Of a stretch of DNA of 58,150 nt, positions 3,566 through 58,150 are shown piece by piece (the first letter of the stretch is position 1; each line of letters starts with the position of its first letter). This DNA comes from a virus. Under the pieces are notes generated by a model. That model worked only from the letters and a program-made list of their open reading frames with translations. It ran no database searches and was not told the origin of the DNA. The translations under genes were made by a program, and so were the position numbers. The stretch covers positions 1 through 58,150 of IMG/VR virus record IMGVR_UViG_3300033141_003493; one strand, written 5' to 3'.

Positions 3566-3806
3566 GTGGCAGAGCCACCGACGGTTGAAACGTGAATAAA
3601 AGTCACGAGTAAATGCGTATATATAAGTGAAGAGTTTCTCTGGACGTTTTCACCACGCTGTGTGGCAAGGCCACCGGCGATTGGAAATCGCAACGTAGAG
3701 ATATTCTCCTGGCCTTCCGTGGCAAGGCCACCGGCGACTAGAAGTCGCCCAGAATCCCCCCTACTTTCCCCCAACGCGGCATTTGCCGCCGACGATTAGA
3801 AATCGT
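3566..3806 (+). repeat. Paired-hairpin repeats before the large terminase
   Basis: A 240-bp non-coding gap holding four copies: 3566-3594 (GGTGGCAGAGCCACC), 3661-3693, 3719-3750 (second stem GGCGACTAGAAGTCGCC) and 3776-3805. The last copy ends immediately before the terminase ATG and leaves no room for a Shine-Dalgarno sequence. The stretch 3600-3640 is AT-rich (GCGTATATATAAG) and could hold a phage promoter, but no -35 is convincing. Confidence 0.7.
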
Positions 3807-30873: not shown

Positions 30874-32349
30874 ATGGCCTACATAAAGCCTAGTACCGGC
30901 GACACGGTAGAAGCAGAACACGTCAATCAGATAACTGACGTGCTGGACGGAACGAGCGGCGAGCCGGTGAAGCTCAAGAACAACGATTCCGTCGAGTACG
31001 TCTTGGACGTTCAGAACCTGGACACGGTGAACTCCCTCATTGCCAGATTCCGCAATGCTGCCGGCGAGACGGTCTTGGGCATTGTCAAGGAAGCGCTGAA
31101 CTTTGGCAAGCAGATCGTCTCCTCTGTGGCCACGGGTACGGCCCCCTTCTCCATTGCCAGCACTACGAAGGTAACAAATCTCAACGCGGACAAGGTAGAC
31201 GACTACGATGCACCGTTCCCATCGGCGGCCATTGCCGATGGAGCAGTAACAGAGGCCAAGATCAGCGCTGGTGCCATCACTTCCGCCAAACTTAGCTCTG
31301 GTGCCGTTACTGCCGGCAAGATTGCCACAGGTGGTGTGTCAGCCGCCGCGCAACTTGCTTCGAATGTAGTCGAGACAGCAAAGATCAAAGATCTGAACGT
31401 CACAGAAGCCAAGATTGCCACTGGCGCAGTGACAGAGACCAAGATCAGTACCGGCGCTGTAACGGAAGGCAAGATCGCCGACGGTGCGGTTACCAATACT
31501 AAGATTGCCTCTGGCGCTGTTACCTCCACGAAACTTGGTTCCGGCGCGGTGACCGCCGGCAAGATCGGCACAGGCGGGGTGAGTGCGGCGACGCAACTTG
31601 CTGACGGTATTGTAACCGAGGCCAAGATCGCCAATGGCGCTGTTACCTCCACAAAACTTGGTTCTGGTGCCGTTACTGCCGGCAAGATTGCCACAGGTGG
31701 TGTGTCTGCTGCAACACAGTTGGCTTCTAACGTAGTAGAGACAGCCAAGATCAAGGACGGTGCTGTTACCGAAAGCAAGATTGCCAATGAAGCAGTGACT
31801 ATCACCAAGATTGCTGACGGTGCCGTCACCAGCGCCAAGATTGTGGGTGGATCCGTGACAGAAGCCAAGATTGCCACGGGCGCTGTTACCTCTACGAAAC
31901 TTGCCTCTAACGCGGTAAGTAGTAGCAAGATTGCCACTGCCGCAGTGAACGCTGCGCATCTGTGTAGCGACATCGTGGATGATACCAAGGTGGGCAACCG
32001 GGTCCCGCAGTTTTATCGACGGCAGGGAGGGGATGCTACTAACTGGGACGTTACGGGAACCACTACCTATATGCCTGGCGCTGTGCGGATGGTTGGTGGT
32101 CGCATACAGATACACTTCAGCGATACACAGAACCTCGCAACGGTAGTCATTGGCTATGGCGTAACATTCTCCGGTCGCCCCCTGCTATTCTATTCCCTAT
32201 TCACTGATCTGTCCCAAAGCACACTCGAAGCAGTTCACATCGAACTGACCAACGCATCGACCACCGGTGTAACGATTTACGGCAAGCGCGCCAGCACATC
32301 GGGCACACTTGACCTGTATATGCACTGGCTTGCTATTGGCCCCGAGTGA
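30874..32349 (+). CDS. Tail fibre with AVTxxKI repeats
   Basis: A 491-residue protein. Residues about 110-360 are tandem repeats of 10-16 residues, core GAVTEAKIATGAVTSTKL, with periodic inserts GTGGVSAATQLA; this is a common triple beta-helix fibre shaft. The N-terminal 100 residues (IKPSTGDTVEAEHVNQITDVLDG) are typical virion-anchoring segments. The C-terminal 120 residues form a compact beta domain likely to be the receptor-binding tip or its base. The repeats are highly similar at DNA level and prone to copy-number change. Confidence 0.85.
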   Translation: MAYIKPSTGDTVEAEHVNQITDVLDGTSGEPVKLKNNDSVEYVLDVQNLDTVNSLIARFRNAAGETVLGIVKEALNFGKQIVSSVATGTAPFSIASTTKVTNLNADKVDDYDAPFPSAAIADGAVTEAKISAGAITSAKLSSGAVTAGKIATGGVSAAAQLASNVVETAKIKDLNVTEAKIATGAVTETKISTGAVTEGKIADGAVTNTKIASGAVTSTKLGSGAVTAGKIGTGGVSAATQLADGIVTEAKIANGAVTSTKLGSGAVTAGKIATGGVSAATQLASNVVETAKIKDGAVTESKIANEAVTITKIADGAVTSAKIVGGSVTEAKIATGAVTSTKLASNAVSSSKIATAAVNAAHLCSDIVDDTKVGNRVPQFYRRQGGDATNWDVTGTTTYMPGAVRMVGGRIQIHFSDTQNLATVVIGYGVTFSGRPLLFYSLFTDLSQSTLEAVHIELTNASTTGVTIYGKRASTSGTLDLYMHWLAIGPE

Positions 32350-35943: not shown

Positions 35944-36819
35944 TTATTTCAGGGCGCTGTCCACTGGTCTAGCGCGTTGGTGAATCGTCCGTAGGTCGTC
36001 ATCTACTTGCTTGAGATATCGCTCCAAGACAGCCAGTGAGGAGTGGCCCAAAAGGCGTTGTAGGGATATGAGATCGCCGCCGTTCCTGAGTACGGCCAGA
36101 GCAAAAGCTCGACGGAACATATGGGGAGTTGGCGGTTGCACACCGGCTCTCTTGGCCCGCCGTCTGAGCATCCCCCGTAGAGCGTCATAAGAGAGGCGTT
36201 TCCCCCGGTTGTCTAACCACAGGGGGCCTTCGAGCTCTCGGTGTCCAAGCCAGCGCAGGATGGCCGCCGTGGTGATATTGCCAACGAAGACCGACCGCCA
36301 CTTGCCGCCCTTGCCCCGGACGCGAATGACGCCACCCTCCAAGTCTACGTCATCCACGTCAAGGTCCAGAAGCTCACCACGCCGCAAGCCAGTATCCAAC
36401 AGAGTCAAGAGGATGGCTCGGTCTCGATCTCCCACAAAGTCCACATCACAGGTTTTCAGCAGGGCCTTCACCGTTTCCAGAGGAACGGGCTCCAGCGGTT
36501 CATCAGGAACCCTGGGCGCTGATACCTTTCGAGTGGGGTCCTCGATGCCATACTCCTCGGCACACCAGCGAAAGAGCGCTCTGGTCGCCCGATACGCCCC
36601 GTGGACTCCCCCGGGGTTGTGAGATTGGGCAAAGTCCACTAAGAATCTCCGCAGATGCTCGGGGCTGACGCGATTCATAGGTGTCTCGCCGACGAACCGG
36701 GCGAGATGAGCCAGTTGCTGCTTGTACCAGCGTATGGTGTAGGGAGACAGTCCCCGGGCCTGCCGATCCAGCAGAAAAAGTCGTACTATCGTGTGGACTG
36801 TTGGCGAGTTTGAAGACAT
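35944..36819 (-). CDS. int: Tyrosine recombinase integrase
   Basis: A 291-residue site-specific recombinase. Residues about 5-90 form the SAM-like core-binding domain (IVRLFLLDRQARGLSPYTIRWY). The catalytic domain has Arg in TGLRRGELL (about 146), Lys in GKGGKWRSV, the HxxR box in HMFRRAFA, LGHSSL and the nucleophile Tyr in ERYLKQ. Size suggests a XerC/D-like enzyme without an arm-binding domain. The tRNA-derived attP lies 66 bp upstream of its start. It should insert the phage into the host tRNA-Ser gene. Confidence 0.9.
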   Translation of the reverse strand: MSSNSPTVHTIVRLFLLDRQARGLSPYTIRWYKQQLAHLARFVGETPMNRVSPEHLRRFLVDFAQSHNPGGVHGAYRATRALFRWCAEEYGIEDPTRKVSAPRVPDEPLEPVPLETVKALLKTCDVDFVGDRDRAILLTLLDTGLRRGELLDLDVDDVDLEGGVIRVRGKGGKWRSVFVGNITTAAILRWLGHRELEGPLWLDNRGKRLSYDALRGMLRRRAKRAGVQPPTPHMFRRAFALAVLRNGGDLISLQRLLGHSSLAVLERYLKQVDDDLRTIHQRARPVDSALK

Positions 36820-38527: not shown

Positions 38528-38669
38528 TAAGAGACAAGGCCGGATCATCGTCGGGCTGATTCGCCGGGTCACCGAGCTGGAGGGAGCAAACAATGAAGGA
38601 TGTCTTGAGGCGGCTGGCCGAGCCGTTTCCCGAGAAGACCATCCAGTGGCTACCACAAAGTGTCACTAA
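38469..38669 (+). CDS. Small coiled-coil protein overlapping rad52-like gene
   Basis: A 66-residue protein with a strong AAGGAGGGAACC ribosome-binding site. Residues 5-40 form a basic coiled coil (EWLASRIRQLEKASKRQGRIIVGLIRRV). Its last 25 codons overlap the next gene by 77 bp. It may be a partner or regulator of the annealing protein; function unknown. Confidence 0.55.
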   Translation: MSGEEMEWLASRIRQLEKASKRQGRIIVGLIRRVTELEGANNEGCLEAAGRAVSREDHPVATTKCH

Positions 38670-39519
38670 GGATGGGCAACGAGCCTTGGCGGTGGCCTAT
38701 ATCGACCCCCGGGATGTACAGCGCCGCCTGGACGAGGTGGTTGGTATGGACTGGTCTTTCCAGTGGGAACCAATCTCTGAGACAGAGGAGGTAAACAGCG
38801 CGGGGCGGAAGGACGTTCTAATCACGGTTCGGGGGACACTGACCGTGCAGGGTACTACGCGCTCGGACGTGGGAGAGGGACACAAGAGCCGAGCGGGTTA
38901 TAAGGCCGCCGTCTCCGATGCCATCAAACGTTGCGGAGTCCAGTTTGGCATCGGCCGTTATCTCTACTATCTGCCCAAGACCTGGGTCCCGTATGACCAA
39001 AATACCAAACAACTCAAATCCACACCCAAGCTACCGTCTTGGGCTTTACCAGGTGCGTCGTGGAACCAAGCAGATGGTCCAGCCAGAAGTGAAGAGCCCG
39101 AAGTAGAAGAGGAGCAAAGTGAGGAGGAACAAAGGGCCGCCGTCCGACGTGAGAGAGGCGATCCAAACATTCGACCCTGGACGCCCGAGACGCTAAAGAG
39201 AGAAATCGCTATTCAGGCCCTACACGGCTATCAGCGAGAAGCTACCGAGAAACAGAAACAGACGGTACGGATGGTGCTAAAAAACCTCTTCCCAGACGAT
39301 CCCGAGGCTGAGGCTAAACGACATATGTTGCTGGGCTACCTCACCGGCAACGAGAGCAGCAAGGAAATGACTGGCCCCATGGCCTCGGCCTTGATTGCGT
39401 GGGCGTCAGAACCGGCCTGGGAGGAGAGCAAAAAGGTTCTTGTACCCAGTAAGTTAGCCATCCAGGAGGCTGCCAACGTTATGCGGGTCTTGGCAATGAC
39501 TGCACAGGAGGGACTGTGA
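38593..39519 (+). CDS. Rad52-family single-strand annealing protein
   Basis: A 308-residue recombinase. Residues 15-150 match the Rad52/22 fold used by phages: YIDPRDVQRRLDEVVG, WEPISET, DVGEGHKSRAGYKAAVSDAIKRCGVQFGIGRYLYYL. The C-terminus is an acidic linker followed by a helical region. It would promote annealing and recombination of replicating phage DNA together with the PD-(D/E)XK exonuclease at 43439. GAGGGAGCAAACA precedes the ATG. Confidence 0.85.
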   Translation: MKDVLRRLAEPFPEKTIQWLPQSVTKDGQRALAVAYIDPRDVQRRLDEVVGMDWSFQWEPISETEEVNSAGRKDVLITVRGTLTVQGTTRSDVGEGHKSRAGYKAAVSDAIKRCGVQFGIGRYLYYLPKTWVPYDQNTKQLKSTPKLPSWALPGASWNQADGPARSEEPEVEEEQSEEEQRAAVRRERGDPNIRPWTPETLKREIAIQALHGYQREATEKQKQTVRMVLKNLFPDDPEAEAKRHMLLGYLTGNESSKEMTGPMASALIAWASEPAWEESKKVLVPSKLAIQEAANVMRVLAMTAQEGL

Positions 39520-46061: not shown

Positions 46062-47186
46062 ATGGTAACAATGAGAGAGTTCTTGCAGTGGGAAGCCGTC
46101 AGCAAAGATACCATTGACTTCAAGAAGGCCTATGTGGACATGGCCGGCGGTGACCTAATAGCCGGCCTGATGTTGAGCCAAATCGTGTTCTGGCACCTGC
46201 CGGATAAGCGTGGGGGAAGCAAGCTGCGCGTAGAAAGAGACGGCTACCAATGGATAGCCAAGAAGCGCACCGATTGGTACGAAGAGTGTCGTATCAGTGA
46301 CCAGCGAGCTCGGCGCGCCCTCAAGCTTCTAACGGAGCTCAACCTCATCGAAACCAAAGTGTACAAGTTTGCGGGCGTCCCCACAACTCATATCCGCATC
46401 CTGCCCGAGCCATTCCTGGCCGCTTGGGAGAACGTCGTCAGATCGCTGTACTCAGATGGGGGTCAATCAGATCGTGAAGGTGAACCAGATGAGACCAATG
46501 GTTTTGACCGAAAGGACCAAGACCTCTTGGGCGAAAGAACCAAGTCCTCTTGGTTGATTTCACCAAGTCCTCTTACAGAGACTACTACAGAGATTACTAC
46601 AGAGAGAGAAGGTCCGGCTTCGCCGGGTTCTCCCCCTGCTGATTCTTTAGCTAAAGTAGAAGCTTTACCTCAAGCTTCTCGTAAGAAAGCTCCAGCAGGG
46701 GGAGAAGTAGAGAAGATCGAGAAGCTAGAGAAGACCGAGAGGGTAAGAAAAACCGAGAAGCTAAAGAAGAAGAAGAGCGTTCTGACCAAGCATCCGGCTA
46801 TACAAGCGTTTCGTAGTGCTGCTTACAGATACCCACCTCGCGCCTGGTACAAGGAAGTTGTAGAGGCCATTGGTGAGAGAGAGGAGGATGTAGGGCGGTG
46901 GCGCGCCCTCGTGCACGACTGGTGTGGGCGGGGTTGGAACCCGGGCAACGTCGCGGGGATGCTGGAGAAGTTCCGCAAGGAGAAGGCGTCTCATGTGATC
47001 GAGGGGTATCTGGGAGGTGTTTGCGGATGCGATCCGCCGTCACCAGACGAGATTCGTCCTGATGGTCGCATAGTTCGCAAGGGCTATCTCGGGGGTGTTT
47101 ACGGATGTGATCCGCCGTCGCCAAACGAGATTCGTCCTGATGGCCGTGTGGTTCGCAAGGGGTATCTCGGAGGTGTTTGTGGATGA
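46062..47186 (+). CDS. Replication initiator-like winged-helix protein
   Basis: A 374-residue protein. Residues 1-120 resemble phage replication initiators of the O/DnaD-like type: YVDMAGGDLIAGLMLSQIVFWH, then ISDQRARRALKLLTELNLIETKV, a winged helix. Residues 130-240 are a low-complexity Glu/Lys/Thr linker. Residues 245-300 (HPAIQAFRSAAYRYPPRAWYKEVVEAIG) form a second folded module. The last 60 residues are 26-residue repeats encoded by the 78-bp repeats. It should bind the origin and load the helicase encoded next. Confidence 0.7.
   Translation: MVTMREFLQWEAVSKDTIDFKKAYVDMAGGDLIAGLMLSQIVFWHLPDKRGGSKLRVERDGYQWIAKKRTDWYEECRISDQRARRALKLLTELNLIETKVYKFAGVPTTHIRILPEPFLAAWENVVRSLYSDGGQSDREGEPDETNGFDRKDQDLLGERTKSSWLISPSPLTETTTEITTEREGPASPGSPPADSLAKVEALPQASRKKAPAGGEVEKIEKLEKTERVRKTEKLKKKKSVLTKHPAIQAFRSAAYRYPPRAWYKEVVEAIGEREEDVGRWRALVHDWCGRGWNPGNVAGMLEKFRKEKASHVIEGYLGGVCGCDPPSPDEIRPDGRIVRKGYLGGVYGCDPPSPNEIRPDGRVVRKGYLGGVCG
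47006..47186 (+). repeat. 78-bp tandem repeat spanning initiator 3' end and helicase start
   Basis: Two full units and a third partial one. Each contains GGxGGTGTTTxxGGATG, which in the last unit is the ribosome-binding site and start of the helicase. Translated in the initiator frame it gives GYLGGVCGCDPPSPDEIRP repeats; the period is a multiple of three, so both frames are preserved. Confidence 0.8.
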
Positions 47187-48174
47187 GACACGTTCTGTGG
47201 TGTTCACGCCCAACGATGCGGTGCGTTTGGCCCTGGAGACGATTCGGGAACGTCGTGATGTCAAGAGGATTGGCGTAAGGACGGGCATCCCCACGCTGGA
47301 CGACTACCTGTTGCCGGCACGCCCGGGCGAACTCATAACCGTGTTGGGGAACAGTAGCAACTACAAGTCCGGGTTTCTGCAATGGTGGGCCAGGTATGCG
47401 GCCAGTGAGCTCGTGTCTGAGGAGCTCACTAACCAGTGTGTGATCTACGTGACTTGGGAGCAGGCTATCGAGGAGGTGCTGGCGTTTGACATGGCTTCGA
47501 CGGCTTCTATGTCGGTCGTGGACATCCTTTCTGGTCAGCTGAGCGATGACGAAGTTCAGCGGTTGGAGGAAGTTGTGGGGCCGCGTCGGGCCACTCTGCC
47601 GCTCTATCTGGTGGGGCATAGCGTTTCGGAGGGCCGGAAGCGTCCCGCGTTGACTCTGGACGTTGTGGGCAGGGCGCTGAACCTTATTCGCCGGGAGTTC
47701 GAGCTGACGCCCAGAATGATTCTGTTGGACTATCTCCAGATTATCGAACCCGGTAGGGGAGAGGACCGACGGATGCAGGTCTTTCACAACGTTCATCGCT
47801 GTAAGGACATGGCTCTAGCTATGTCCTGTCCTGTGGTGCTGGCTTCGCAGGCCAGGAGGAGCGTCATGGAGAAGCGTATCGCTGTTCCGGGCATAGCCGA
47901 CTCCGAGGAGTCCAGTAACGCAGAACATGCGTCGGACAAGATGCTGGGGCTTTGGATGCCCAAAACCAAGTATGCCGTTGGTGAGGAAGTGCCTATTGGC
48001 AAGGACAGGGACATCGAAGTGTCTGAGAGTCTGTTGTTGGTGAGGGTGCTCAAACAGAGGATGGGACCGGCGGGTCGGTTGTTTGATCTCTATGTCGACC
48101 CGGCAACGAACTACATTGGCCCGCGTGACGATAAAGAGGTTTTCTTTGAAGGGACTGAACCTATCCCGTTCTAG
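47179..48174 (+). CDS. DnaB-like replicative helicase (RecA-fold ATPase)
   Basis: A 331-residue hexameric-helicase-type ATPase. GIPTLDDYLLPARPGELITVLGNSSNYKSG is the DnaB-type Walker A region, VIYVTWEQ follows the expected strand, MILLDYLQII is Walker B, and VVLASQARR the H4-like motif. It lacks the N-terminal primase-interacting domain of bacterial DnaB. Start GTG 47179 after CGGAGG is preferred; GTG 47173 and an in-frame GTG 47095 in the previous repeat are alternatives. Confidence 0.8.
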   Translation: MDETRSVVFTPNDAVRLALETIRERRDVKRIGVRTGIPTLDDYLLPARPGELITVLGNSSNYKSGFLQWWARYAASELVSEELTNQCVIYVTWEQAIEEVLAFDMASTASMSVVDILSGQLSDDEVQRLEEVVGPRRATLPLYLVGHSVSEGRKRPALTLDVVGRALNLIRREFELTPRMILLDYLQIIEPGRGEDRRMQVFHNVHRCKDMALAMSCPVVLASQARRSVMEKRIAVPGIADSEESSNAEHASDKMLGLWMPKTKYAVGEEVPIGKDRDIEVSESLLLVRVLKQRMGPAGRLFDLYVDPATNYIGPRDDKEVFFEGTEPIPF

Positions 48175-48194: not shown

Positions 48195-49748
48195 ATGTGG
48201 ACGATAGTCCGCGGTAACGCTCTGCACTTGCCGTTGGCGGATAGGTCCGTGCAGTGCGTTGTGACCTCGCCACCGTACTGGGGTCTGCGGGTATATGCTG
48301 GTGTTCAGCCGTCGGTATGGGGCGGTGATCCTGAGTGCGAGCACGACTGGGATGTAGCGTGCTATCGGCGTAGAAGTAACGATGACAAAGGGGGCGGGAA
48401 GCAACTTACCAACGTGGGCTCTACCGGGCGCGATGTGCCTATAGAGTATGCTACTTGTTCCCATTGCGGTGCGTGGTATGGCTGTCTGGGTCTGGAACCG
48501 ACGCCGGGTCTTTATGTGCAGCATCTGGTAGAGGTTTTTAGAGAGGTGTGGCGTGTGCTGCGCCCGGACGGGACCCTGTGGTTGAACCTGGGAGATACGT
48601 ACAACTCGAACCCGTCCTGGGGGCGTGGGCGGAGTACCCTAGAAAGCCGGCGACAAAGTGTTATTCCCCCGAAACCTGCGGGCGGCTGGTATGACCATAG
48701 CAAGACGGTCGATCTCAAGTCCAAAGACTTGGTAGGAATCCCCTGGCGTGTGGCTTTCGCGCTGCAAGCTGAGGGTTGGTACCTTCGCAGCGATATCATC
48801 TGGGCCAAGGGGCTGTCGTTCTGCCCGGCCTACAGTGGTTCCGTCATGCCCGAGTCGGTTGCTGATCGCCCCACATCCGCATACGAACATGTCTTCTTGC
48901 TGAGCAAAAGTGTGCGCTATTACTACGACAACGATGCGGTGAGGGAGCCGCAGGCTGGTTATATGTACAGGGGGCGTGGAGGTCTCAGTAAGGCGGATTA
49001 TGAAAATCGTAAATGGACAACGCGCTCCGATGGTCTCTCTCGTCCACCGATGACCATGAATAATCGTCAGTATCATGCCGCTGGGCGCAATCTGCGGAAC
49101 GTATGGGCTATCAATCCTAGCCCTTTTCGTGGCGCGCATTTCGCTACGTTCCCGCCCGCTCTTGTGGAGTGCTGTATCAAAGCGGGCACAAGTGAGTGTG
49201 GATGCTGCCCGCATTGCGGTGCGCCGTGGGAGCGGGTGGTGGAGAGAGAGGCGCTTGGCGAGAGGGATGACACAGGTCGTACACACGGCTTGGCCCCGCA
49301 ACGCCTGAATAGCCCTGGCGCGCCGCCTGAGCGCGGGTGGCAAGCAGCCCATACCACTATTGGCTGGCAACCAACCTGCGATTGCCCAGAACATGACCCG
49401 GTTCCGTGTGTCGTTCTGGACCCCTTTGCCGGTGCGGGGACTACGTTGCTGGTAGCGGACCGTTTGGGAAGGCATGGCGTGGGCGTGGAGTTGAGCGGTG
49501 AGTACTGTGATATGGCGCGTAAGCGCTGTTATCAGGATGCGCCATTGTTAGCATGGACCAGAGGGCAAGATGATTGTCGGGGTAACGCCGGAGATGTGGG
49601 AAGAGGTGTGCGCCCTGGCCCGTCGCAGGCATTTGCCCAAGGAGAGGCTGGGTATCAGGGGGGCCTGGCAGGGGTCGTCGCTGAAGACGCACCAGATGGG
49701 GCTCCTGGGCGAGCTGGCCGTGGCTCGGGTGTTGGCCTTGCAGATTGA
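48195..49748 (+). CDS. DNA methyltransferase (beta class, N4-C/N6-A type)
   Basis: A 517-residue enzyme. Motif IV TSPPYW is near residue 24 and motif I DPFAGAGTT near 416, the circular order of beta-class amino-methyltransferases. Two cysteine pairs (CSHCGAWYGC; CGCCPHCG) suggest zinc-binding inserts. The middle (EVWRVLRPDGTLWLNLGDTYN) is typical of phage and prokaryotic N4/N6 enzymes. The last 60 residues overlap the next gene by 179 bp and are Gly/Ala-rich, probably read-through past the ancestral end. It may protect phage DNA from restriction. Confidence 0.85.
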   Translation: MWTIVRGNALHLPLADRSVQCVVTSPPYWGLRVYAGVQPSVWGGDPECEHDWDVACYRRRSNDDKGGGKQLTNVGSTGRDVPIEYATCSHCGAWYGCLGLEPTPGLYVQHLVEVFREVWRVLRPDGTLWLNLGDTYNSNPSWGRGRSTLESRRQSVIPPKPAGGWYDHSKTVDLKSKDLVGIPWRVAFALQAEGWYLRSDIIWAKGLSFCPAYSGSVMPESVADRPTSAYEHVFLLSKSVRYYYDNDAVREPQAGYMYRGRGGLSKADYENRKWTTRSDGLSRPPMTMNNRQYHAAGRNLRNVWAINPSPFRGAHFATFPPALVECCIKAGTSECGCCPHCGAPWERVVEREALGERDDTGRTHGLAPQRLNSPGAPPERGWQAAHTTIGWQPTCDCPEHDPVPCVVLDPFAGAGTTLLVADRLGRHGVGVELSGEYCDMARKRCYQDAPLLAWTRGQDDCRGNAGDVGRGVRPGPSQAFAQGEAGYQGGLAGVVAEDAPDGAPGRAGRGSGVGLAD

Positions 49749-51567: not shown

Positions 51568-51961
51568 TAAGACTGTTGTTGACTGGGTGCTCCCTTTCCT
51601 CGGGGCGTTAGTCACTATGCTATTCGGACCGTGGAGCGTGGCTCTGCGTTTTCTGCTAATAGTGATGGTATTGGATGTCGTCTCTGGCTGGACCAGGGCT
51701 TGGATTCAGGCTCGCCTGTCGAGCAAGGAGTCCTGGAGGGGGTTTGCTAAGAAGTTATTGATTTGGTGCGCGGTGGCTTTGGCACATCAACTCTCTGGGC
51801 CGCTGGATTTCCCGGGCCTACGTGATCTAGTGGTCGGTTGGTACTGTATGTCTGAGGCCCTTAGTGTGCTGGAGAACCTGGCCGCTGCCGGGGTTCCGTT
51901 CCCCGACTGGCTTGCTGACCGATTGGAGGCAGCGAGGGGTGACAAGTTCAGATGCGGTTAG
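51560..51961 (+). CDS. Holin (Phage_holin_4/TcdE-like)
   Basis: A 133-residue membrane protein with GGGAGGAG before the ATG. Three hydrophobic segments are seen: WVLPFLGALVTMLFGPW, LRFLLIVMVLDVVSGW and AKKLLIWCAVALAHQ, followed by YCMSEALSVLENLAAAGVPFPDWLADRL, the family's characteristic C-terminal stretch. It would time lysis by opening the membrane for the amidase and glycosidase, which are encoded 16 kb away in the late operon. Confidence 0.85.
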   Translation: MRSKTVVDWVLPFLGALVTMLFGPWSVALRFLLIVMVLDVVSGWTRAWIQARLSSKESWRGFAKKLLIWCAVALAHQLSGPLDFPGLRDLVVGWYCMSEALSVLENLAAAGVPFPDWLADRLEAARGDKFRCG

Positions 51962-52235
51962 GTTTAGGGTTCTGCGGCGTGACAACTTCCGCTGCGTGGA
52001 CTGTGGTGCTTATCCCTGTTCGACCGTTCATCATATCATCAGCCGTCGGTACAAGGGTGCGTGGGACGAGAAGAATATGGTGACCTTGTGTCAGCGTTGT
52101 CATCTTGAAGGGCCGGGGCGTTCCGGTGCGCATTCTCACGAAGCCCGGAGGCGTCACCTAGAGTATCTGGAGCGTCGCTTCGGCTATGTCTACTCTGGGG
52201 GTCCTTGGCTGGAAGCGCTGGAAAGGGCCTCTTGA
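51939..52235 (+). CDS. HNH endonuclease
   Basis: A 98-residue protein from GTG 51939 (GCGAGGGG upstream). FRCVDCG and LCQRCH bind zinc; TVHHIISRRYKGAWDEKNMVTLCQRCH is the HNH catalytic motif. In many phages such an enzyme is encoded beside the terminase and assists packaging or cos cleavage; here the terminase lies across the leftward accessory cluster. Its 3' end overlaps the convergent DUF805 gene by 46 bp. Confidence 0.85.
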   Translation: MTSSDAVRFRVLRRDNFRCVDCGAYPCSTVHHIISRRYKGAWDEKNMVTLCQRCHLEGPGRSGAHSHEARRRHLEYLERRFGYVYSGGPWLEALERAS

Positions 52236-52552
52236 GTTTTGGGCTTGCCCGGTATCAGCGCTAGGCAGATGAAGAAGAAGAGATTGAGTACCGGAACGAA
52301 AGTTACCAGCACCCATGCCCCAGATGAGCGCATATCTTTCAGGCGTCGCAGTACGAGGGTGATGACGCCGATGGTGCCTAGGATGCTCAGGCTGGTTGGT
52401 GGATAGGCGCTCAGATCAGCCCCTAGGCTCCAGTCTATCACTGTGATGACTAGCGCCAGGATGAGCAGATACACGTAGCCCAGGACGAAAGCCAGGCGAC
52501 CTGCGGGCCGTCTTGCGTCAAACACCCTGAGCGGGTTCAGATAGTCGTTCAT
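52190..52552 (-). CDS. DUF805-family membrane protein
   Basis: A 120-residue protein. Hydrophobic segments: AFVLGYVYLLILALVITVI, LSILGTIGVITLVL, AWVLVTFVPVLNLFFFICLAL; the loop RRLKDMRSSGAWVL and the end LIPGKPKTQE match DUF805 (YhaH-like) proteins of bacterial inner membranes. In a phage it could be an acquired host gene or a superinfection or lysogenic conversion factor. It is the last gene of the right leftward cluster. Confidence 0.75.
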   Translation of the reverse strand: MNDYLNPLRVFDARRPAGRLAFVLGYVYLLILALVITVIDWSLGADLSAYPPTSLSILGTIGVITLVLRRLKDMRSSGAWVLVTFVPVLNLFFFICLALIPGKPKTQEALSSASSQGPPE

Positions 52553-52593
52553 TTAGTTCCCCCTGTACCTTACCAACTGAATAGAATCTACTC

Positions 52594-52634
52594 TACACCA
52601 GAGCAACGCCGGTGCTCGACGTTGCTCTGGTGTA
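52594..52634. terminator. Perfect 15-bp hairpin
   Basis: TACACCAGAGCAACG pairs with CGTTGCTCTGGTGTA around an 11-nt loop between the DUF805 gene and the small-gene cluster. It may separate DUF805 expression from the upstream operon; there is no U-run. Confidence 0.6.
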
Positions 52635-52647
52635 CAGCGGTATGTGT

Positions 52648-52941
52648 TTAGCTGCACCTCCTTTCTGCGGATGCGACCACGGTTACACCGGCCTCTGCGA
52701 AGGCGCGCTCGACCTCGCCGATGTAGTTCCAGGCGGCTGCGCCGTCCTTGGACATCTCGATGATCGGTGTGTCTGCGGGATAGATTAGCGCGTTGCCCGG
52801 CCTACTTCGTGGACGGTCCATCGTGAAGAAGGCGAACACGCTGTGGGCTCGCTTGTCTGCCGGTAGTTCGTCGAGGACACGAGCCGCGATGTTCTGTGCC
52901 TCTTCGAGCGTGACGCCCTTTACGTAGATTGTGCTGCGCAT
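52648..52941 (-). CDS. Small orphan protein, right cluster
   Basis: A 97-residue alpha/beta protein starting MRSTIYVKGVTLEEAQNIAARVLDEL, with a predicted beta-alpha-beta order and a charged C-terminus. AGGAGGTCTAAC precedes the ATG. No recognised family; it overlaps the upstream gene by 22 bp. Confidence 0.65.
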   Translation of the reverse strand: MRSTIYVKGVTLEEAQNIAARVLDELPADKRAHSVFAFFTMDRPRSRPGNALIYPADTPIIEMSKDGAAAWNYIGEVERAFAEAGVTVVASAERRCS

Positions 52942-53312
52942 GTTAGACCTCCTACTACTCTGCTGTCCGTATATGGCCCGCCGGAGTTTTGTCCACCGTG
53001 CCAACCGTGTAATACCTCGATCAGTACCCTCTCTCCGTCAATGGTTACCTCCCAGGTTTCGATCATATCCTGGTAGGTAACGCGGTCTAGGCCTGCGAGC
53101 TCATACGTGTCCCCGGCGCGCTTGGCGATTAGACGGGCGGTTATGACGTGGCCGTCCTCTTTGAGACACTGGATAAGCGTATCTAAAGACACGGCTCGGG
53201 GATTCCACACGGAGTTGTCCTGCTGTATGGACTCCCAACGAAGATTGTCTATCTCCCGTTGGACCGCTTGGGGCAGAGTAAGAGTCTCGCCCAGGCTGTT
53301 TGTTCTCTGCAT
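52920..53312 (-). CDS. Small orphan protein, right cluster
   Basis: A 130-residue protein starting MQRTNSLGETLTLPQAVQREID, with AGGAGGTGTGAC before ATG 53312. The middle is helical (VSLDTLIQCLKEDGHVITARLIAKRAG), the C-terminal half strand-rich (TWEVTIDGERVLIEVLHGWHGG). No known family. Confidence 0.65.
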   Translation of the reverse strand: MQRTNSLGETLTLPQAVQREIDNLRWESIQQDNSVWNPRAVSLDTLIQCLKEDGHVITARLIAKRAGDTYELAGLDRVTYQDMIETWEVTIDGERVLIEVLHGWHGGQNSGGPYTDSRVVGGLTCAAQST

Positions 53313-53313
53313 G

Positions 53314-53706
53314 TCACACCTCCTCATAACCCTCTTCGGAGAGCACATCCAAAAACTCTGCATCTACATTGTGCTCAAGTTCCGCGCCCCGAGCAGATAT
53401 GAGCGCTCGGAGATGTAGAGTATCGTTCGGCCACATGGCCAGCAAGTCAGAATACGTGGCGCAGCGGTGCTTCTGCGTAAAGATGGCCCAGCCTTCTTCC
53501 CAGCTGCCAACCTTCTCGTATCCGAGTATCTCCATCCGGCGATCAGCACGGTCGGCAATCTCGGCCCAGACAGGTCGCTCGTCTGGAGGCCTGTCCGGTA
53601 ACTCGTCTGGCCTGGGTAAGGTGAGCGCAACTGCACCGTTCTTGCCGAGCGTACATTCCACCCCATACGCCAGGCCCTCTACATAAACTGTCATGTGTCG
53701 GTTCAT
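53314..53706 (-). CDS. Small orphan protein, right cluster
   Basis: A 130-residue acidic protein (MNRHMTVYVEGLAYGVECTLG; PVWAEIADRADRRMEILGY). It ends one base before the next gene start and begins after AGGAGGGTTGAG. No recognised domain; accessory operon. Confidence 0.65.
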   Translation of the reverse strand: MNRHMTVYVEGLAYGVECTLGKNGAVALTLPRPDELPDRPPDERPVWAEIADRADRRMEILGYEKVGSWEEGWAIFTQKHRCATYSDLLAMWPNDTLHLRALISARGAELEHNVDAEFLDVLSEEGYEEV

Positions 53707-53716
53707 CTCAACCCTC

Positions 53717-54130
53717 CTAGCCGAACTGCACTAGGTAGTCTGGCCCGCCCTCTACCCGAATGATCGCGTTGTACGGTCCCCACCCCAGGACCTGTATGTC
53801 CAGGATCTCGTAGTCGCTCTCGGCAATAGCGGAGATATCCTCATCATCCGATGCGTCGCCGACTGGCTCCACCAACCATGGCGGCCGTTCATAGGGCCGG
53901 ATCATCTGCGCCGCCATGATGTTGCATTGGCGCAGGTCGTCCTCAATGTACTGTCGGACGACGTGCTTGATGTACTCGCGTTCCTCGTCGGAGCGGCCCT
54001 CTCCACAAAACCGCGTCAGGTCCGCAGCGTAGGATGCTGGAGAGTACCCCTGGCCGAGGTACTCTCGCAGCGTAGTCGTCTGGGCAGAGTACTGCTCTCC
54101 CACCATCTGCCGCAACTGTTCTCTGTTCAT
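53717..54130 (-). CDS. Orphan protein, paralogue of the 71-301 gene
   Basis: A 137-residue protein starting MNREQLRQMVGEQYSAQT. Its first 45 residues align with the 76-residue protein at 71-301 (QLRQMV, EQY, AQT, EYL, YAxDLxxFCxEGR). The remaining 90 residues are specific: helical then acidic. The longer upstream frame has no signal; GGAGGTGTGAC precedes ATG 54130. Function unknown. Confidence 0.7.
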   Translation of the reverse strand: MNREQLRQMVGEQYSAQTTTLREYLGQGYSPASYAADLTRFCGEGRSDEEREYIKHVVRQYIEDDLRQCNIMAAQMIRPYERPPWLVEPVGDASDDEDISAIAESDYEILDIQVLGWGPYNAIIRVEGGPDYLVQFG

Positions 54131-54131
54131 G

Positions 54132-54326
54132 TCACACCTCCAGTCCATATGCTTTGCGGAACCACGTTTTGGCTTCGGCGAGACTGTTCGCCTTGGCCAG
54201 CACGGTGTCTCGGTCGAGACGGTCACCCTCCGGTCTTGCTCCCACTACGTATCCGCCCCTGCTGGTCAATACCCAGTACACTTGCTCGCCTTCCGAGATT
54301 GTCTCTAGGATGTCGATCTTGTCCAT
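54132..54326 (-). CDS. Small orphan protein, right cluster
   Basis: A 64-residue protein (MDKIDILETISEGEQVYWVLTSRGGYVVGA, then a helix SLAEAKTWFRKAYG), beta-hairpin plus helix. One base separates it from the next gene. CAGGAGGGCTTAC precedes the ATG. The helix motif (LAEAKxW) recalls LGEARAYAADL in the 1436-1678 protein. Confidence 0.65.
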   Translation of the reverse strand: MDKIDILETISEGEQVYWVLTSRGGYVVGARPEGDRLDRDTVLAKANSLAEAKTWFRKAYGLEV

Positions 54327-54342
54327 GTAAGCCCTCCTGGTG

Positions 54343-54438
54343 CTACAGACATCCGCGGATGATGATGAGGATGGCCAAGCCTACGAAGTAGGCTGTAAGG
54401 TATGGCATTGCTGCCGATGGCGGCTTTCGTCTCATCAT
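54343..54438 (-). CDS. 31-residue single-span membrane peptide
   Basis: A very short gene, MMRRKPPSAAMPYLTAYF then VGLAILIIIRGCL: a basic N-terminus followed by one transmembrane helix. Its start overlaps the stop of the upstream gene (ATGA), and GGAGG lies about 11 bases before. Many phage inhibitors of host membrane processes have this size and shape, but no specific relation is visible. Confidence 0.5.
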   Translation of the reverse strand: MMRRKPPSAAMPYLTAYFVGLAILIIIRGCL

Positions 54439-54674
54439 AACCGTACTGCCTCCTCCGGGTATAGATAGGCTTCTACGTCGTCTCTGGCTAACTCCATGGC
54501 CTCATCTTCCGCCGTTGCCTCATCGTAGCCTTCGGCCAGCAGTTGCGCAAGTCGTATTGCGTATCTGTCCTCGTACATTCGGTCAAGGTATTGGCGATAG
54601 GACCGCGCAGCAGCGGCGCGGAGCGCCTCACCATCCGGGCGGTACCCGAGTATCCGCCTCAAGTTTTTCATCAT
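54435..54674 (-). CDS. Small helical orphan protein
   Basis: A 79-residue protein (MMKNLRRILGYRPDGEALRAAAARSYRQYLDRMYEDRYAIRLAQLLAEGYDEATAEDEAMELARDD, shortened here to its character: Ala/Arg/Glu helices). AAGGAGATATACG precedes the ATG inside the upstream gene, which it overlaps by 47 bp. Unknown function. Confidence 0.6.
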   Translation of the reverse strand: MMKNLRRILGYRPDGEALRAAAARSYRQYLDRMYEDRYAIRLAQLLAEGYDEATAEDEAMELARDDVEAYLYPEEAVRL

Positions 54675-55038
54675 CGTATATCTCCTTGGTTATTACCAGG
54701 GGGTATACCCCCGGCTCGTGCCGATATGCCCGTCGCCCGATGCGGATAAAGTACTCGGGCAGCGCATCGGCTAGCTTCTCTGCCCGCAGTCGCACATCTG
54801 CCTCGCAGCTCTCGTAGTGCTGTTTGGCTTCCCTGGCCCGACTCTGGAGTTCATCAAGCCGCTCTCGCCAGGCGTAAAAGTGCTCGATGCTTTCAAAGTA
54901 CTCTGGGGCGTTCTGTATGTGATAGTCCCGCGCCTGTGCTGCCTTGTCGGCGGCGGTCTTGGCCTCGGTCAGTCTTTCCTTGGCCGAGGCCCACTTCGCA
55001 AGAAGCCCCTCCAGTTGGTCCTGTGTTACGTCGTACAT
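54628..55038 (-). CDS. Coiled-coil orphan protein
   Basis: A 136-residue protein starting MYDVTQDQLEGLLAKWASAKERL. Residues 8-100 are a continuous charged coiled coil; the end (YFIRIGRRAYRHEPGVYPLVITKEIYDDEKL) is beta-like. AAAGGAGGTAAC gives a strong start at 55038. No family recognised. Confidence 0.65.
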   Translation of the reverse strand: MYDVTQDQLEGLLAKWASAKERLTEAKTAADKAAQARDYHIQNAPEYFESIEHFYAWRERLDELQSRAREAKQHYESCEADVRLRAEKLADALPEYFIRIGRRAYRHEPGVYPLVITKEIYDDEKLEADTRVPPGW

Positions 55039-55067
55039 GTTACCTCCTTTGGTAATCGGTTGATGGT

Positions 55068-55313
55068 TCATGGTGCTCCCCTCATCCTGAGGCCGACGTA
55101 CCCGCCGGCTCGGTACGCTGCTTGTGCTTCCTGGTATCGTTCTCTGCTTCTCTCGTACCAGTGCACGTGGGGGTTATTCTCACTGAAGACCACGAATGCA
55201 CTCTGAGCGTCGATGCCCTCGTACTCGCAAGCTCGCGCCCATGCTAGGCGTGCCGCCTCTTGTAGCAGGCTAAGATACTGCTCGGCTTGACGGTTCAGTT
55301 GCTTCTGGTTCAT
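55068..55313 (-). CDS. Small helical orphan protein
   Basis: An 81-residue protein starting MNQKQLNRQAEQYLSLLQEAARLAWARACEY. Its N-terminus is similar in style to the MNREQL family (71-301, 53717-54130). CAGGAGAGAATC precedes the ATG, inside the upstream gene end. Unknown function. Confidence 0.6.
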   Translation of the reverse strand: MNQKQLNRQAEQYLSLLQEAARLAWARACEYEGIDAQSAFVVFSENNPHVHWYERSRERYQEAQAAYRAGGYVGLRMRGAP

Positions 55314-55666
55314 GATTCTCTCCTGATCGCTTCCAACTGCCACGGCTGCCAGCGCTTCCAGTGGTTGGGCGGGCATACGCCTGACCAATCGCAGACGATA
55401 CAGCCCCGCGAATCGCAGATCGGGCAGCTTACGACTCGGGCACCTGGTACCTCCGGGTCTGGTGCCCAGTCGGTACCGCCGAGGATTCGCTCCCCCGTCT
55501 TGGTCTGTGCAGCCCAGTAGACAATGCTAAGCCCTCTCCGCCTCGCTTTCTCCCTTTGCTGGCTGATCTCGACTCGGTTCATTGCCGGCATCAACTCGTG
55601 TGTTTCTGGTGGGTCTGTTGGTCTTCTGGCGTAGCCGAGCACGTGATAGGTATAGCTGCGGCCCAT
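55310..55666 (-). CDS. Orphan protein with zinc-finger-like cysteines
   Basis: A 118-residue protein. VVSCPICDSRGCIVCDWSGVCPP holds CxxC and CxxC with a further cysteine, like DnaJ-type zinc modules. The N-terminus (MGRSYTYHVLGYARRP) is basic. Start uses AAGGAGGTTATC, the repeated block also found at 933 and 1678. It ends overlapping the next start by four bases. Confidence 0.65.
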   Translation of the reverse strand: MGRSYTYHVLGYARRPTDPPETHELMPAMNRVEISQQREKARRRGLSIVYWAAQTKTGERILGGTDWAPDPEVPGARVVSCPICDSRGCIVCDWSGVCPPNHWKRWQPWQLEAIRRES

Positions 55667-55706
55667 GATAACCTCCTTGTGGGCCTATTGTCGTTCGGCC
55701 TTGTGA

Positions 55707-56033
55707 CTAGCCGATCTGAACCTTGACGCCCTCAGTGTCTACGGTCCACTCTGCGGGGTCTTCGTTGCTGCTCTTGGTAAAGCCCCGGTTTATCCAGAGG
55801 CCGCCAGGCACGCACTCGGGGTGATGTTGAGCGTCAAAGCGTTGCGCGGCCTGGCAGATATACCGCCATGTCTTTTCGTGCACCCGTGGCCAGCCTTCGA
55901 TTTGGCGCACCTGCTGCCATGGTATACCCGTGGCCTCTATCACGTAGCGGTAGAGGTCCAAGAGCCAGTCGCCCTGGTTGCTTGCGTCTGCGAATGCGGC
56001 GTCGATTCGTTCCTTGCTCAACTTTACGATCAT
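55707..56033 (-). CDS. Orphan protein, right cluster
   Basis: A 108-residue protein starting MIVKLSKERIDAAFADASNQ, helical N-terminal two thirds (WLLDLYRYVIEATGIPWQQVRQIEGW) and beta-like end. AAGGAGGTTCAC precedes the ATG. The intergenic blocks on both sides share GGCCTATTGTCG, a repeated spacer. Function unknown. Confidence 0.65.
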   Translation of the reverse strand: MIVKLSKERIDAAFADASNQGDWLLDLYRYVIEATGIPWQQVRQIEGWPRVHEKTWRYICQAAQRFDAQHHPECVPGGLWINRGFTKSSNEDPAEWTVDTEGVKVQIG

Positions 56034-56115
56034 GTGAACCTCCTTGCCGGCCTATTGTCGCCCGACCGGCGGGGCTTGTGTTGCTCGGCCTTGGCGCTCA
56101 CGGTGAGCCGCCGGG

Positions 56116-56319
56116 CTAGTTTGTGGGTTTTACCGTTACCGTGATTCGCTTGGCCGACGCTCCGCTCTGGCTCCCCCACCTCTCCACTACCCATTTTTGG
56201 AGGTAGAGGCTGCCGATTCTTATCGGTTCGCCCGGTCCCGGCACCTCCTCGTATCGCAATGCGTTTTTGGTCTCTTTTGCGACCTCAAACGCTACGGTGA
56301 TACCGTCGTGTTCGGTCAT
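56116..56319 (-). CDS. Small orphan beta protein
   Basis: A 67-residue protein starting MTEHDGITVAFEVAKETKNALRYEEV, predicted all-beta with a basic C-terminus (KRITVTVKPTN). GGAGGTAACAG precedes ATG 56319. The pattern FEVAKETKNALRYEE resembles a family of short proteins found in phages and actinobacteria without known function. Confidence 0.65.
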   Translation of the reverse strand: MTEHDGITVAFEVAKETKNALRYEEVPGPGEPIRIGSLYLQKWVVERWGSQSGASAKRITVTVKPTN

Positions 56320-56681
56320 GCTGTTACCTCCTCGGCGTCTACCCGTAGCAGCAGATCGATCACCTGCTCGTAGATATGTGGATACCAACGGCAGCGCTCC
56401 AGCAGCTCCATCATCTGGCCCTGTTTCTCGGCCGGAGCCTGTGCGACCAGTTCCTTACCCCAGGCGATTAGCGCCCGCTCCGCCTCGATTAGCTCGTCGA
56501 GCGCTTCGCGGTATCCAGATTCATCATCAAGTCGTACCGCAGCCTCGGCGTAAGCCTGCAGCTGGTCATCTGTCGCGTGTCGGGGCAGCGGCGGCAGTTC
56601 TCCCCTCCGCCGGTTCCGCTCTTGCTCGGCGACCTCCAGGGCCGCCTTAGCCCAGATACAGCGCAACTGTACGGCGTTCAT
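56316..56681 (-). CDS. Helical orphan protein
   Basis: A 121-residue protein starting MNAVQLRCIWAKAALEVAEQERNRRRGELPPL, almost entirely helical with an antiparallel coiled-coil look. GGAGGGAGCA precedes ATG 56681; it overlaps both neighbours by four bases. No known family. Confidence 0.65.
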   Translation of the reverse strand: MNAVQLRCIWAKAALEVAEQERNRRRGELPPLPRHATDDQLQAYAEAAVRLDDESGYREALDELIEAERALIAWGKELVAQAPAEKQGQMMELLERCRWYPHIYEQVIDLLLRVDAEEVTA

Positions 56682-56878
56682 TGCTCCCTCCTTAGCCAAT
56701 CGCTGAGAACGGTTGTGCCAGTTTCGGCGTCGGCTGCTGCCTGGCACATGGCATTTAGCAACTCCCGCGCCCGAGCGTCGGCGGCCATTGCCCTGATCTC
56801 TCGCTCAGACGCGCCCAGGTGCATAGCCTCCGCCACTATCTCCTGACGTATCTCTATCGCCCGCTGAGTCATTCTCAT
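56678..56878 (-). CDS. Small helical orphan protein
   Basis: A 66-residue protein (RAIEIRQEIVAEAMHLGASEREIRAMAADARARELL), Ala/Glu/Arg-rich helices. GGGAGGCGACAC precedes the ATG; it ends in a four-base overlap with the next gene. It is the gene immediately after the Csx16-like gene in the operon. Unknown function. Confidence 0.65.
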   Translation of the reverse strand: MRMTQRAIEIRQEIVAEAMHLGASEREIRAMAADARARELLNAMCQAAADAETGTTVLSDWLRREQ

Positions 56879-56903
56879 GTGTCGCCTCCCTTCCTTTGCC
56901 GGA

Positions 56904-56931
56904 GGTGGGGCGGGGTTACACCCGCCTCACC
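56904..56931. other. Stop-in-loop hairpin after Csx16-like gene
   Basis: GGTGGGGCGGG pairs, with one bulge or mismatch, with CCCGCCTCACC; the TAA of the Csx16-like gene lies in the loop. Same arrangement as at 64-81 and 1161-1190. Confidence 0.5.
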
Positions 56932-57191
56932 TCATAAGCAACCAATGCCGCGCCCGCCGCGTCCATCTCGGCCGGCGTCAAGTCCTGCCCCCGCTGCTCC
57001 GGTCGGAGCCGGGGCAGGTCGATGGTGACCACCCGGGCGGCTTCCGCCGCCAGGTGGAGGGGCAGCGTCCCGTAAACGACACGGCCCCGAACGTCTTCGG
57101 CGGTAGCGTGCTCGATCACGCGCCCCGTGATTCCGTGCCGGCGCAGCCACTCAACCGCGCCGGCATGACGCGAAACGATCACGATATCCAT
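56916..57191 (-). CDS. csx16: Csx16-like protein, candidate viral ring nuclease/anti-CRISPR
   Basis: A 91-residue protein that matches the Csx16 family over its whole length: VSRHAGAVEWLRRHGI (residues 6-21), VIEHATAEDVRGRVVYGTLPLHLAAE (25-50), IDLPRLRPEQRGQDL (57-71) and EMDAAGAALVAYEV (75-88). Csx16 is known from type III CRISPR loci and, as I recall, recent work assigns cyclic tetra-adenylate ring-nuclease activity to it. Destroying this messenger would blunt type III immunity, as the unrelated viral AcrIII-1 does. No cas gene is nearby. It is the second gene after the right leftward promoter, so expressed early or in the prophage. AGGAGGTACAAC precedes the ATG. Confidence 0.8.
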   Translation of the reverse strand: MDIVIVSRHAGAVEWLRRHGITGRVIEHATAEDVRGRVVYGTLPLHLAAEAARVVTIDLPRLRPEQRGQDLTPAEMDAAGAALVAYEVRRV

Positions 57192-57233
57192 GTTGTACCT
57201 CCTCGCTGCTGAGGGCCTGCTTGACAGCATACG

Positions 57234-57500
57234 CTACCAATGCCAGGGTGGCGCGAAGCGATGATATTCATGTCCCCCCTCCTTTGGCGCTTTGGTCCAG
57301 AACAAGCGCCATGTCAAGCCGTCGGGTATCTGGCGCGGTGAGATATCCCCCGGCAGGCTGTCGGGTGGGAAGGTCCGGATTCTTATCCTTCCCTCTTGCC
57401 GGTAGAGGATATAATCGCCGCCGGTCCCCGGGTCTGTTGCGATTGCTCCAGGCCCGCCGCCTTCAAGCATAACGTGAAGCCATACCTCGGTCGGGATCAT
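57234..57500 (-). CDS. First gene of right accessory operon; DGLTW-family orphan
   Basis: An 88-residue protein starting MIPTEVWLHVMLEGGGPGA. The segment IPDGLTWRLFWTKAP matches VPDGLTWALYWARPL of the 1739-1963 protein, and both are first genes behind the identical 87-bp promoter element. AAAGGGGGCGGACC precedes the ATG. Function unknown; co-expressed with the Csx16-like gene. Confidence 0.7.
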   Translation of the reverse strand: MIPTEVWLHVMLEGGGPGAIATDPGTGGDYILYRQEGRIRIRTFPPDSLPGDISPRQIPDGLTWRLFWTKAPKEGGHEYHRFAPPWHW

Positions 57501-57533
57501 GGTCCGCCCCCTTTCGCCTATGGCTGTCTCACT

Positions 57534-57620
57534 CGCTTACAATGTAACACACAGTTACGATTTTGTCAAGTCCCCGGGGCCTAGATTCGGGGATTCGTTG
57601 GAGATTTTCACAAAGTCCGC
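57534..57620. repeat. 87-bp perfect direct repeat, copy 2 (promoter element)
   Basis: Identical to 1998-2084 over all 87 bases and in the same orientation; flanking bases differ on both sides. In a circular genome the two copies would bracket about 2.7 kb containing the left accessory operon. Confidence 0.95.
57541..57569 (-). promoter_or_regulatory. Leftward sigma-70-type promoter, copy 2
   Basis: TTGACA (57569-57564), 17-bp spacer, TACATT (57546-57541) on the minus strand, identical to copy 1. It drives the right leftward operon, including the Csx16-like gene. Confidence 0.75.
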
Positions 57621-57633
57621 AGGGAGGGCGAGG

Positions 57634-57822
57634 ATGGAACGCTTGGAGTTTGTGGCCGTACTCGCGCCAATACAATCTGCTGTCAAGATTCACCCCGAAG
57701 GCGGCGGGCGTCTGATCTTCGACGTAGACGATCAGAGCCTCCGGCGGATATGGCCGGTGCTGCCGGATTGGCGCGACATTTTGCTAAGGGTTACGGTGGA
57801 GCCTATGCCCGGCGCTCGGTAA
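57634..57822 (+). CDS. Small rightward orphan protein
   Basis: A 62-residue protein starting MERLEFVAVLAPIQSAVKIHPEGGG, with GGGAGGGCGAGG upstream. Short alpha/beta pattern with VDDQSLRRIWPVLPDW; its F-D-V-D-D and VLLRVTVEP features recall small phage proteins of unknown role. It is the only rightward gene within the accessory region and is divergent from the copy-2 promoter; it is closed by the hairpin at 57826. Confidence 0.65.
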   Translation: MERLEFVAVLAPIQSAVKIHPEGGGRLIFDVDDQSLRRIWPVLPDWRDILLRVTVEPMPGAR

Positions 57823-57825
57823 AAC

Positions 57826-57856
57826 TGGAGGCCCTAGCTCTATGCTAGGGCCTCCA
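57826..57856. terminator. Strong bidirectional hairpin
   Basis: Perfect 13-bp stem TGGAGGCCCTAGC-TCTAT-GCTAGGGCCTCCA between the convergent genes at 57634-57822 and 57866-58150. On the minus strand it is followed by GTTTTACC, so it can end the leftward operon too. Confidence 0.75.
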
Positions 57857-57865
57857 ACCGGCGGC

Positions 57866-58150
57866 TTAGGCCCAGCGCTCCACCCACGACCGTTCAAGTG
57901 TTTCGGCTGCTTGCTCGATGGTCTTCGGGTCATCTGGTGATAGGCCCCATTCTCCCGGGTGTTCTCGCATGTATCGGGCACACTCTTCAAAGTATTCTCG
58001 ATCATGTGCTGCAACCTTGGGGTTTAGCAGCCATGCCAGATTAGACAGGTCATGGTACGTCAGTTCCGCCGCACAGGGCAGCTGTGAGACGTACCGACCG
58101 ATTACGTCTTTGGTTCGTAGGTTGTAGCCCGCCGCCCGTAAGTATTTCGC
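57866..58150 (-). CDS. Leftward gene, 5' end beyond window
   Basis: A 94-codon open frame runs in from the right edge and ends at TAA 57866-57868. It reads AKYLRAAGYNLRTKDVIGRY, then LPCAAELTYHDLSNLAWLL and ends ETLERSWVERWA: a regular helical soluble protein with aromatic and acidic residues. It has no start inside the window. It is probably the last gene of the operon that begins at 1963 if the molecule is circular. Confidence 0.65.
   Translation of the reverse strand, partial: AKYLRAAGYNLRTKDVIGRYVSQLPCAAELTYHDLSNLAWLLNPKVAAHDREYFEECARYMREHPGEWGLSPDDPKTIEQAAETLERSWVERWA

Follow-up and report, generated by a model that had tools for sequence, protein, structure and literature searches.

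A stand-alone Csx16 on a tailed phage: a candidate type III anti-CRISPR from a branch of the family carried by viruses and plasmids

Introduction

How a type III CRISPR response is brought to an end depends on ring nucleases, and viruses are known to deploy such enzymes against CRISPR; for AcrIII-1/Crn2, recruitment of the cellular form from a viral source has been proposed. Csx16 is typically, though not obligatorily, located in a type III CRISPR locus. Biochemical work has established Csx16 as a ring nuclease specific for cyclic tetra-adenylate (cA4), which degrades cA4 and not cA6, and AlphaFold3 predicts a dimer with a Rossmann-like core of five strands (PMC12409355). By the same account, 2 of 28,114 phage genomes encode Csx16, and in published counts AcrIII-1/Crn2 predominates among phage ring nucleases (PMC12409355). 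Viruses and plasmids also carry Crn4b, AcrIII-2 and Acb1, proteins of families other than Csx16 that are thought, or have been shown, to eliminate cyclic nucleotide alarms or bind them up. The fold of Crn4 is unrelated and its specificity broad (PMC12830947), and no phage Csx15 is reported in PMC13148439.

A first-pass annotation of the phage record analysed here had proposed that its Csx16 follows an AcrIII-1-like viral strategy, and had stated that some Csx16 proteins cleave cyclic oligoadenylate. This agrees with the activity demonstrated for another member of the family, and the strategy is of a known type; a phage-borne Csx16, however, is not unprecedented. Because the protein has already been reported in two phage genomes (PMC12409355), the idea of phage Csx16 is not new; our literature search found no paper naming PF09652 together with phage. 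What the present data newly add is breadth, with Csx16 on 25 or more other viral contigs, and a distinct branch, borne by viruses and plasmids, in which one segment is shorter.

Results and Discussion

A csx16 gene in a tailed phage without type III cas genes

The DNA analysed (the window) is a complete IMG/VR virus record of 58,150 bases, classed as linear. By its gene content it is a tailed phage, with terminase, portal, major capsid protein and integrase genes, which upholds the earlier description of its csx16 as phage-encoded; the tyrosine integrase makes a temperate lifestyle likely.

3783-5129, plus strand: terminase large subunit (phrog_2, E=1.2e-15; PF17288)
5194-7389, plus strand: portal protein (phrog_64, E=1.4e-11)
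26651-27580, plus strand: major head protein (phrog_212, E=6.9e-60)
30874-32349: tail fibre
35944-36819, minus strand: tyrosine integrase (PF00589, E=1.9e-31)
38593-39519: Rad52-type annealing protein
47095-48174: DnaB-type helicase
48195-49748: N6/N4 DNA methylase
51864-52235: HNH nuclease

The structural genes gave no direct DNA match to known phages, and capsid, terminase and integrase matched known proteins only distantly (<40% identity); most of the hits belong to Actinomycetota and Pseudomonadota phages. No RAMP (PF03787) was found anywhere in the 58,150 bases. The record is thus without type III cas genes, csx16 lies outside any type III CRISPR locus, and the first-pass statement that cas genes are absent is supported for type III. 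The gene has the location expected of an anti-CRISPR: it is encoded by a phage, on a mobile element without the type III system that it would counter.

The small accessory genes among which csx16 had been placed form a minus-strand cassette at one end of the window, where an AGGAGG-like site precedes most ATG starts.

52190-58150, minus strand: cassette of small phage accessory genes that holds csx16 (ORFs, ribosome-binding sites)
56678-56878, minus strand: small accessory gene (66 aa) directly 3' of csx16, no assigned function (ORF with Shine-Dalgarno; no PADLOC match)
56916-57191, minus strand: csx16, 91 aa, predicted cA4 ring nuclease and candidate type III anti-CRISPR (PF09652, PADLOC, AF2, invariant residues)
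57195-57204, minus strand: Shine-Dalgarno stretch GAGGAGGTAC, 5' of the csx16 ATG
57234-57500, minus strand: small accessory gene 5' of csx16, no assigned function (ORF; weak L002 homologue, 38%; no Pfam match)

The csx16 reading frame occupies exactly 56916-57191 and encodes MDIVIVSRHAGAVEWLRRHGITGRVIEHATAEDVRGRVVYGTLPLHLAAEAARVVTIDLPRLRPEQRGQDLTPAEMDAAGAALVAYEVRRV. A strong Shine-Dalgarno site, GAGGAGGTACAAC, stands before the ATG at 57191, and this start (91 aa) is therefore favoured over the ATG at 57230 (104 aa). A plus-strand ORF antisense to the gene (56877-57212) was rejected; its similarity to loci L002, L003, L011 and L013 is a shadow of the conserved csx16.

Profile searches of the cassette neighbours gave no informative family matches. 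A related 65-kb phage contig, L002, has a csx16 that is 86-89% identical and shares several other small cassette genes with the window; among these are the genes at 55310-55666 and 53314-53706, with homologues at 66% and 53%, and ones at the opposite end (360-2014). Homologues of the small minus-strand genes at 360-2014 and 53314-57500 are packed within one 6-kb stretch of L002. Because the end genes sit together there, the two ends of the window would make up one accessory region, which suggests that they are joined in the real genome, whether permuted or circular. When the ends were joined in silico, no conclusive gene spanned the junction.

The protein is Csx16 from end to end

The first-pass annotation had recognised the Csx16 pattern throughout the protein from the motifs RHAGAVEW, GTLPLHLAAE and RGQDL. 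All three are present, and profile searches bear out the assignment. Residues 5-88 align with positions 2-90 of the 91-position Pfam model PF09652 (Cas_VVA1548, Csx16) at E=1e-21 and 77.3 bits, above the curated cutoff of 25 bits, and the PADLOC Csx16 model is matched at E=6.4e-22. The NCBIfam model TIGR02620 (Csx16, hypothetical equivalog) gives E=1.1e-11 and 44.8 bits, 1.5 bits below its curated cutoff of 46.35 bits; judged by its sequence, the protein is homologous to that family and a non-member by this stricter model. PHROGs holds no family for it. A PADLOC profile for a CARF-HEPN-Csx16 fusion (PDLC01842) also matches, and the existence of profiles for Csx16 fusions to CARF-HEPN effectors ties the domain to cOA signalling.

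In an alignment of 32 viral, plasmid and cellular Csx16 sequences, R8, H9, G41, L43, P44, R67, G68 and L71 are invariant. The window protein keeps them all, among them the Arg and His positions R8, H9 and R67. We know of no Csx16 catalytic residue that has been established experimentally; going by conservation, the active site appears to be retained.

AF2 models the protein at pLDDT 97.1 with five main strands alternating with helices, a prediction compatible with the derived Rossmann/CARF-like fold of five strands that is expected of Csx16. The model has no significant Foldseek match in PDB or BFVD (best E 0.098 and 0.047), and fold comparison is for this reason not counted as support. The non-significant hits include cA4-bound Cad1 (E 0.17) and AFV3-109 (2j6b, a Crn2/AcrIII-1 relative; E 0.82, TM 0.47). 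In a PDB sequence search, only designed ankyrin repeat proteins were among the matches listed; these were rejected as homologues, as the resemblance, which extends over 20-50 residues or so, comes from agreement between the ankyrin repeat motif PLHLAA and GTLPLHLAAE.

AcrIII-1/Crn2 (PF08960; SIRV1 gp29, AFV3-109) would resemble the window protein in its role, as a viral ring nuclease that removes cA4, and in being a small predicted alpha/beta protein. It differs in sequence, as PF08960 matches neither the window nor any of 23 other records searched, and the structural similarity to 2j6b is the non-significant one given above.

Purifying selection and base composition

Compared with its nearest relative in L002, csx16 has dN 0.089 and dS 0.58 (dN/dS about 0.15), a ratio by which the gene is under purifying selection. 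Its GC content is 70%, whereas the window as a whole has 58%, and its GC3 of 81% exceeds the 62-74% of the other genes that were measured; the excess is compatible with capture from a higher-GC genome. Recent capture from such a source is what one would expect if csx16 were a passenger cas gene, brought in by transduction or recombination and now functionless in the phage. The frame is intact, however, the ribosome-binding site is strong, selection against change is evident, and the nearest relatives are viral rather than cellular, so that we regard a mere passenger as very improbable.

Csx16 recurs in viruses that share little else

A profile scan of IMG/VR found csx16 in 18 other viral contigs, and a scan with a single member as query added 7 that the first pattern had missed, which makes the resulting 25 a lower bound. 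Neither a long-form alignment nor two other queries brought up contigs beyond those already found. All 25 proteins exceed the PF09652 cutoff. Two of them (L019 and L022) are identical where they overlap, so the distinct viral relatives number 24. One PHROG model detected a terminase in 10 of the initial 19 viral records, a number that includes the window. No RAMP was present in those 19 records or in six of the seven further ones.

No neighbour family is common to three or more of the viral csx16 loci, and the window ORFs beside csx16 are shared almost only with L002. The gene therefore travels as independent cargo, recurring in many viruses that have few or no other genes in common nearby.

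Among annotated phage records, two distinct viruses carry Csx16, the Methanobacterium viruses Drs3 (47% identity) and PhiF3 (32%), where it is labelled "putative CRISPR-associated protein". Like the window, they are virus genomes without cas genes, and no RAMP was found in either record; unlike the window, they have archaeal hosts, carry csx16 near the record ends and keep a longer form of the protein (see below). In the stretches compared they have no window gene in common besides csx16. They are probably the two phage Csx16 counted in PMC12409355.

Two forms of Csx16

To compare the viral proteins with cellular ones, we used a sample of 398 genomes, all Pseudomonadota. Csx16 scored above the cutoff in 12 of these, at 110-140 bits. 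RAMPs were present in 10 of 11 positive genomes searched, mostly on the csx16 contig, and in the twelfth (G020) they lie beside csx16.

CRISPR-locus copies resemble the window protein in matching the profile over its full length, in their invariant RH, G-x-LP and RG-x-x-L motifs, in the predicted five-stranded alternating alpha/beta fold and in length class. The window copy differs in standing alone on a phage and in falling below the TIGR02620 cutoff. A further difference lies in a short segment. Where CRISPR-locus Csx16 reads HLAAEVCARGARYLHLSL, the window copy is without the four residues after HLAAE; in the alignment, CRISPR-locus copies continue after the LPLHLA motif as HLAAEVCARGARYLHLSLDLP, whereas all viral-contig copies except L026 miss four residues of that segment and read HLAAEAARVVTIDLP or similar. 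The Drs3 and PhiF3 proteins retain the longer segment. Its absence accounts for the lower scores of viral copies on the PF09652 model, 41-77 bits as against 95-140 bits for CRISPR-locus copies.

In phylogenetic trees, the CRISPR-locus copies and one viral contig (L026) form a clade with support of 97/98 or 96/99. Every other aligned phage, virus and plasmid copy falls outside it, the window protein included (96/99), and the nearest relatives of the latter are viral, not cellular.

The missing segment might alter specificity. One could accordingly suppose that the viral branch has shifted to another cyclic nucleotide (CBASS products, cA3 or cA6), or that it holds cA4 as a sponge instead of cutting it. 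The separate branching of the viral copies, their lack of the CxRGARY-type segment and their far lower scores on the family model would fit a changed target, and some Csx15 relatives can act as sponges (PMC13148439). Against a new target, the viral copies retain the residues invariant across the family, whose sole characterised activity is cA4-specific. Sponging is disfavoured because type III systems are said to make much more signal than other pathways (PMC13148439). We consider either version unlikely, and prefer cA4 cleavage.

The pattern V[YI]G[VTA]LPLHLA, which is present, read by eye, in 16 of the 18 viral loci of the profile scan, was also used to scan species-representative genomes totalling 257 Gb. 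Three relatives were found, all long-form; the scan is not exhaustive, since a Deinococcus proteolyticus plasmid copy carrying the pattern was not returned.

These data bear on the question of who benefits. With the same chemistry, csx16 could serve the lysogen rather than lytic infection, by restraining type III responses that are set off by accident or turned on self, such as those that prophage transcripts might trigger, so that both the integrated phage and its host survive. Such a role would suit a phage with a tyrosine integrase, and limiting aberrant activation is the presumed task of cellular ring nucleases (PMC12409355). Yet csx16 lies in the accessory cassette, away from the integrase; Drs3, which the title of its paper (reference 26 of PMC8540584) calls a lytic archaeal virus, also has Csx16; and the 257-Gb collection, in which integrated prophages would show, yielded no short-form copy in that non-exhaustive scan. 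Service to the lysogen thus seems improbable to us as the main role, and action during infection the better reading.

A proposed role in blocking type III immunity

We propose, with a probability of about 0.72, that the window csx16 encodes a stand-alone ring nuclease of the virus type that degrades cA4 and so blocks type III effectors during infection. Membership in the virus and plasmid branch of a family that destroys cA4 makes it probable that the protein silences host defence. Csx16 would be produced during infection from the phage accessory cassette. Once host Cas10 detected phage RNA and made cA4, phage Csx16 would bind the cA4 and linearise it by cleavage, whereas cA6 would be expected to stay intact. 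Effectors that need cA4, such as Csx1, Can and Cam, would in consequence not be switched on, leaving the phage able to replicate. The supports computed here are the family profile, the phage location, the lack of type III cas genes, the invariant residues, purifying selection and recurrence. We infer the activity of this copy, cA4 as its target and anti-CRISPR protection: the enzymatic step from the family, and the benefit to the phage from the context.

The existence of a separate viral branch, represented in 25 or more uncultivated viral contigs, suggests that viruses remove cA4 by means of Csx16 more often than published counts imply. At somewhat less than even odds, this large branch specific to viruses and plasmids may act as a type III anti-CRISPR that is widespread among the tailed viruses infecting bacteria and archaea, and may even be the source of cellular Csx16. 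The viral set also provides a natural sequence panel with which to examine how specific and how fast these proteins are, and which way genes have moved between phages and CRISPR loci.

Csx16 on plasmids, and beside a viral type IV module

Large plasmids of Deinococcus, Allomeiothermus, Paenibacillus and an uncultured archaeon also carry Csx16 and are cas-free, with no RAMP in any of the four records; on Aeromonas and Allochromatium plasmids, Csx16 lies within real type III loci. The cas-free plasmid pMESIL02 of Allomeiothermus silvanus encodes two Csx16-like domains in tandem in one protein (L007, 5998-6783), possibly a single-chain version of the dimer. On the 510-kb Paenibacillus polymyxa plasmid pSC2, a Csx16-like domain is joined to an extra N-terminal half (L044, 4731-5279).

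Csx16 of the uncultured archaeal plasmid LC711081.1 (L006, 7995-8291) shares 57% identity with its counterpart on a viral contig (L017, 7995-8297), and the two group together with support of 99/94 to 100/100. This grouping points to exchange of Csx16 between plasmids and viruses, perhaps of archaea.

Virus-borne type IV-B systems are already known from Bathyarchaeia viruses (PMC10848311). One tailed-phage-like contig, among the seven that the single-member scan had added, IMGVR_UViG_3300037424_001387 (L047, 6059-8041; L055, 9321-11672), combines csx16 with a type IV CRISPR module, in which PADLOC recognises Csf1/Cas8 (E 4.7e-22), Cas11 (2.2e-29) and Csf2/Cas7 (1.8e-74); a Csf3-like and a CysH-like ORF were read by eye, as was a terminase-like ORF (L055, 1642-2952). 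The module is type IV-B-like, not type III, and lies about 2 kb from csx16.
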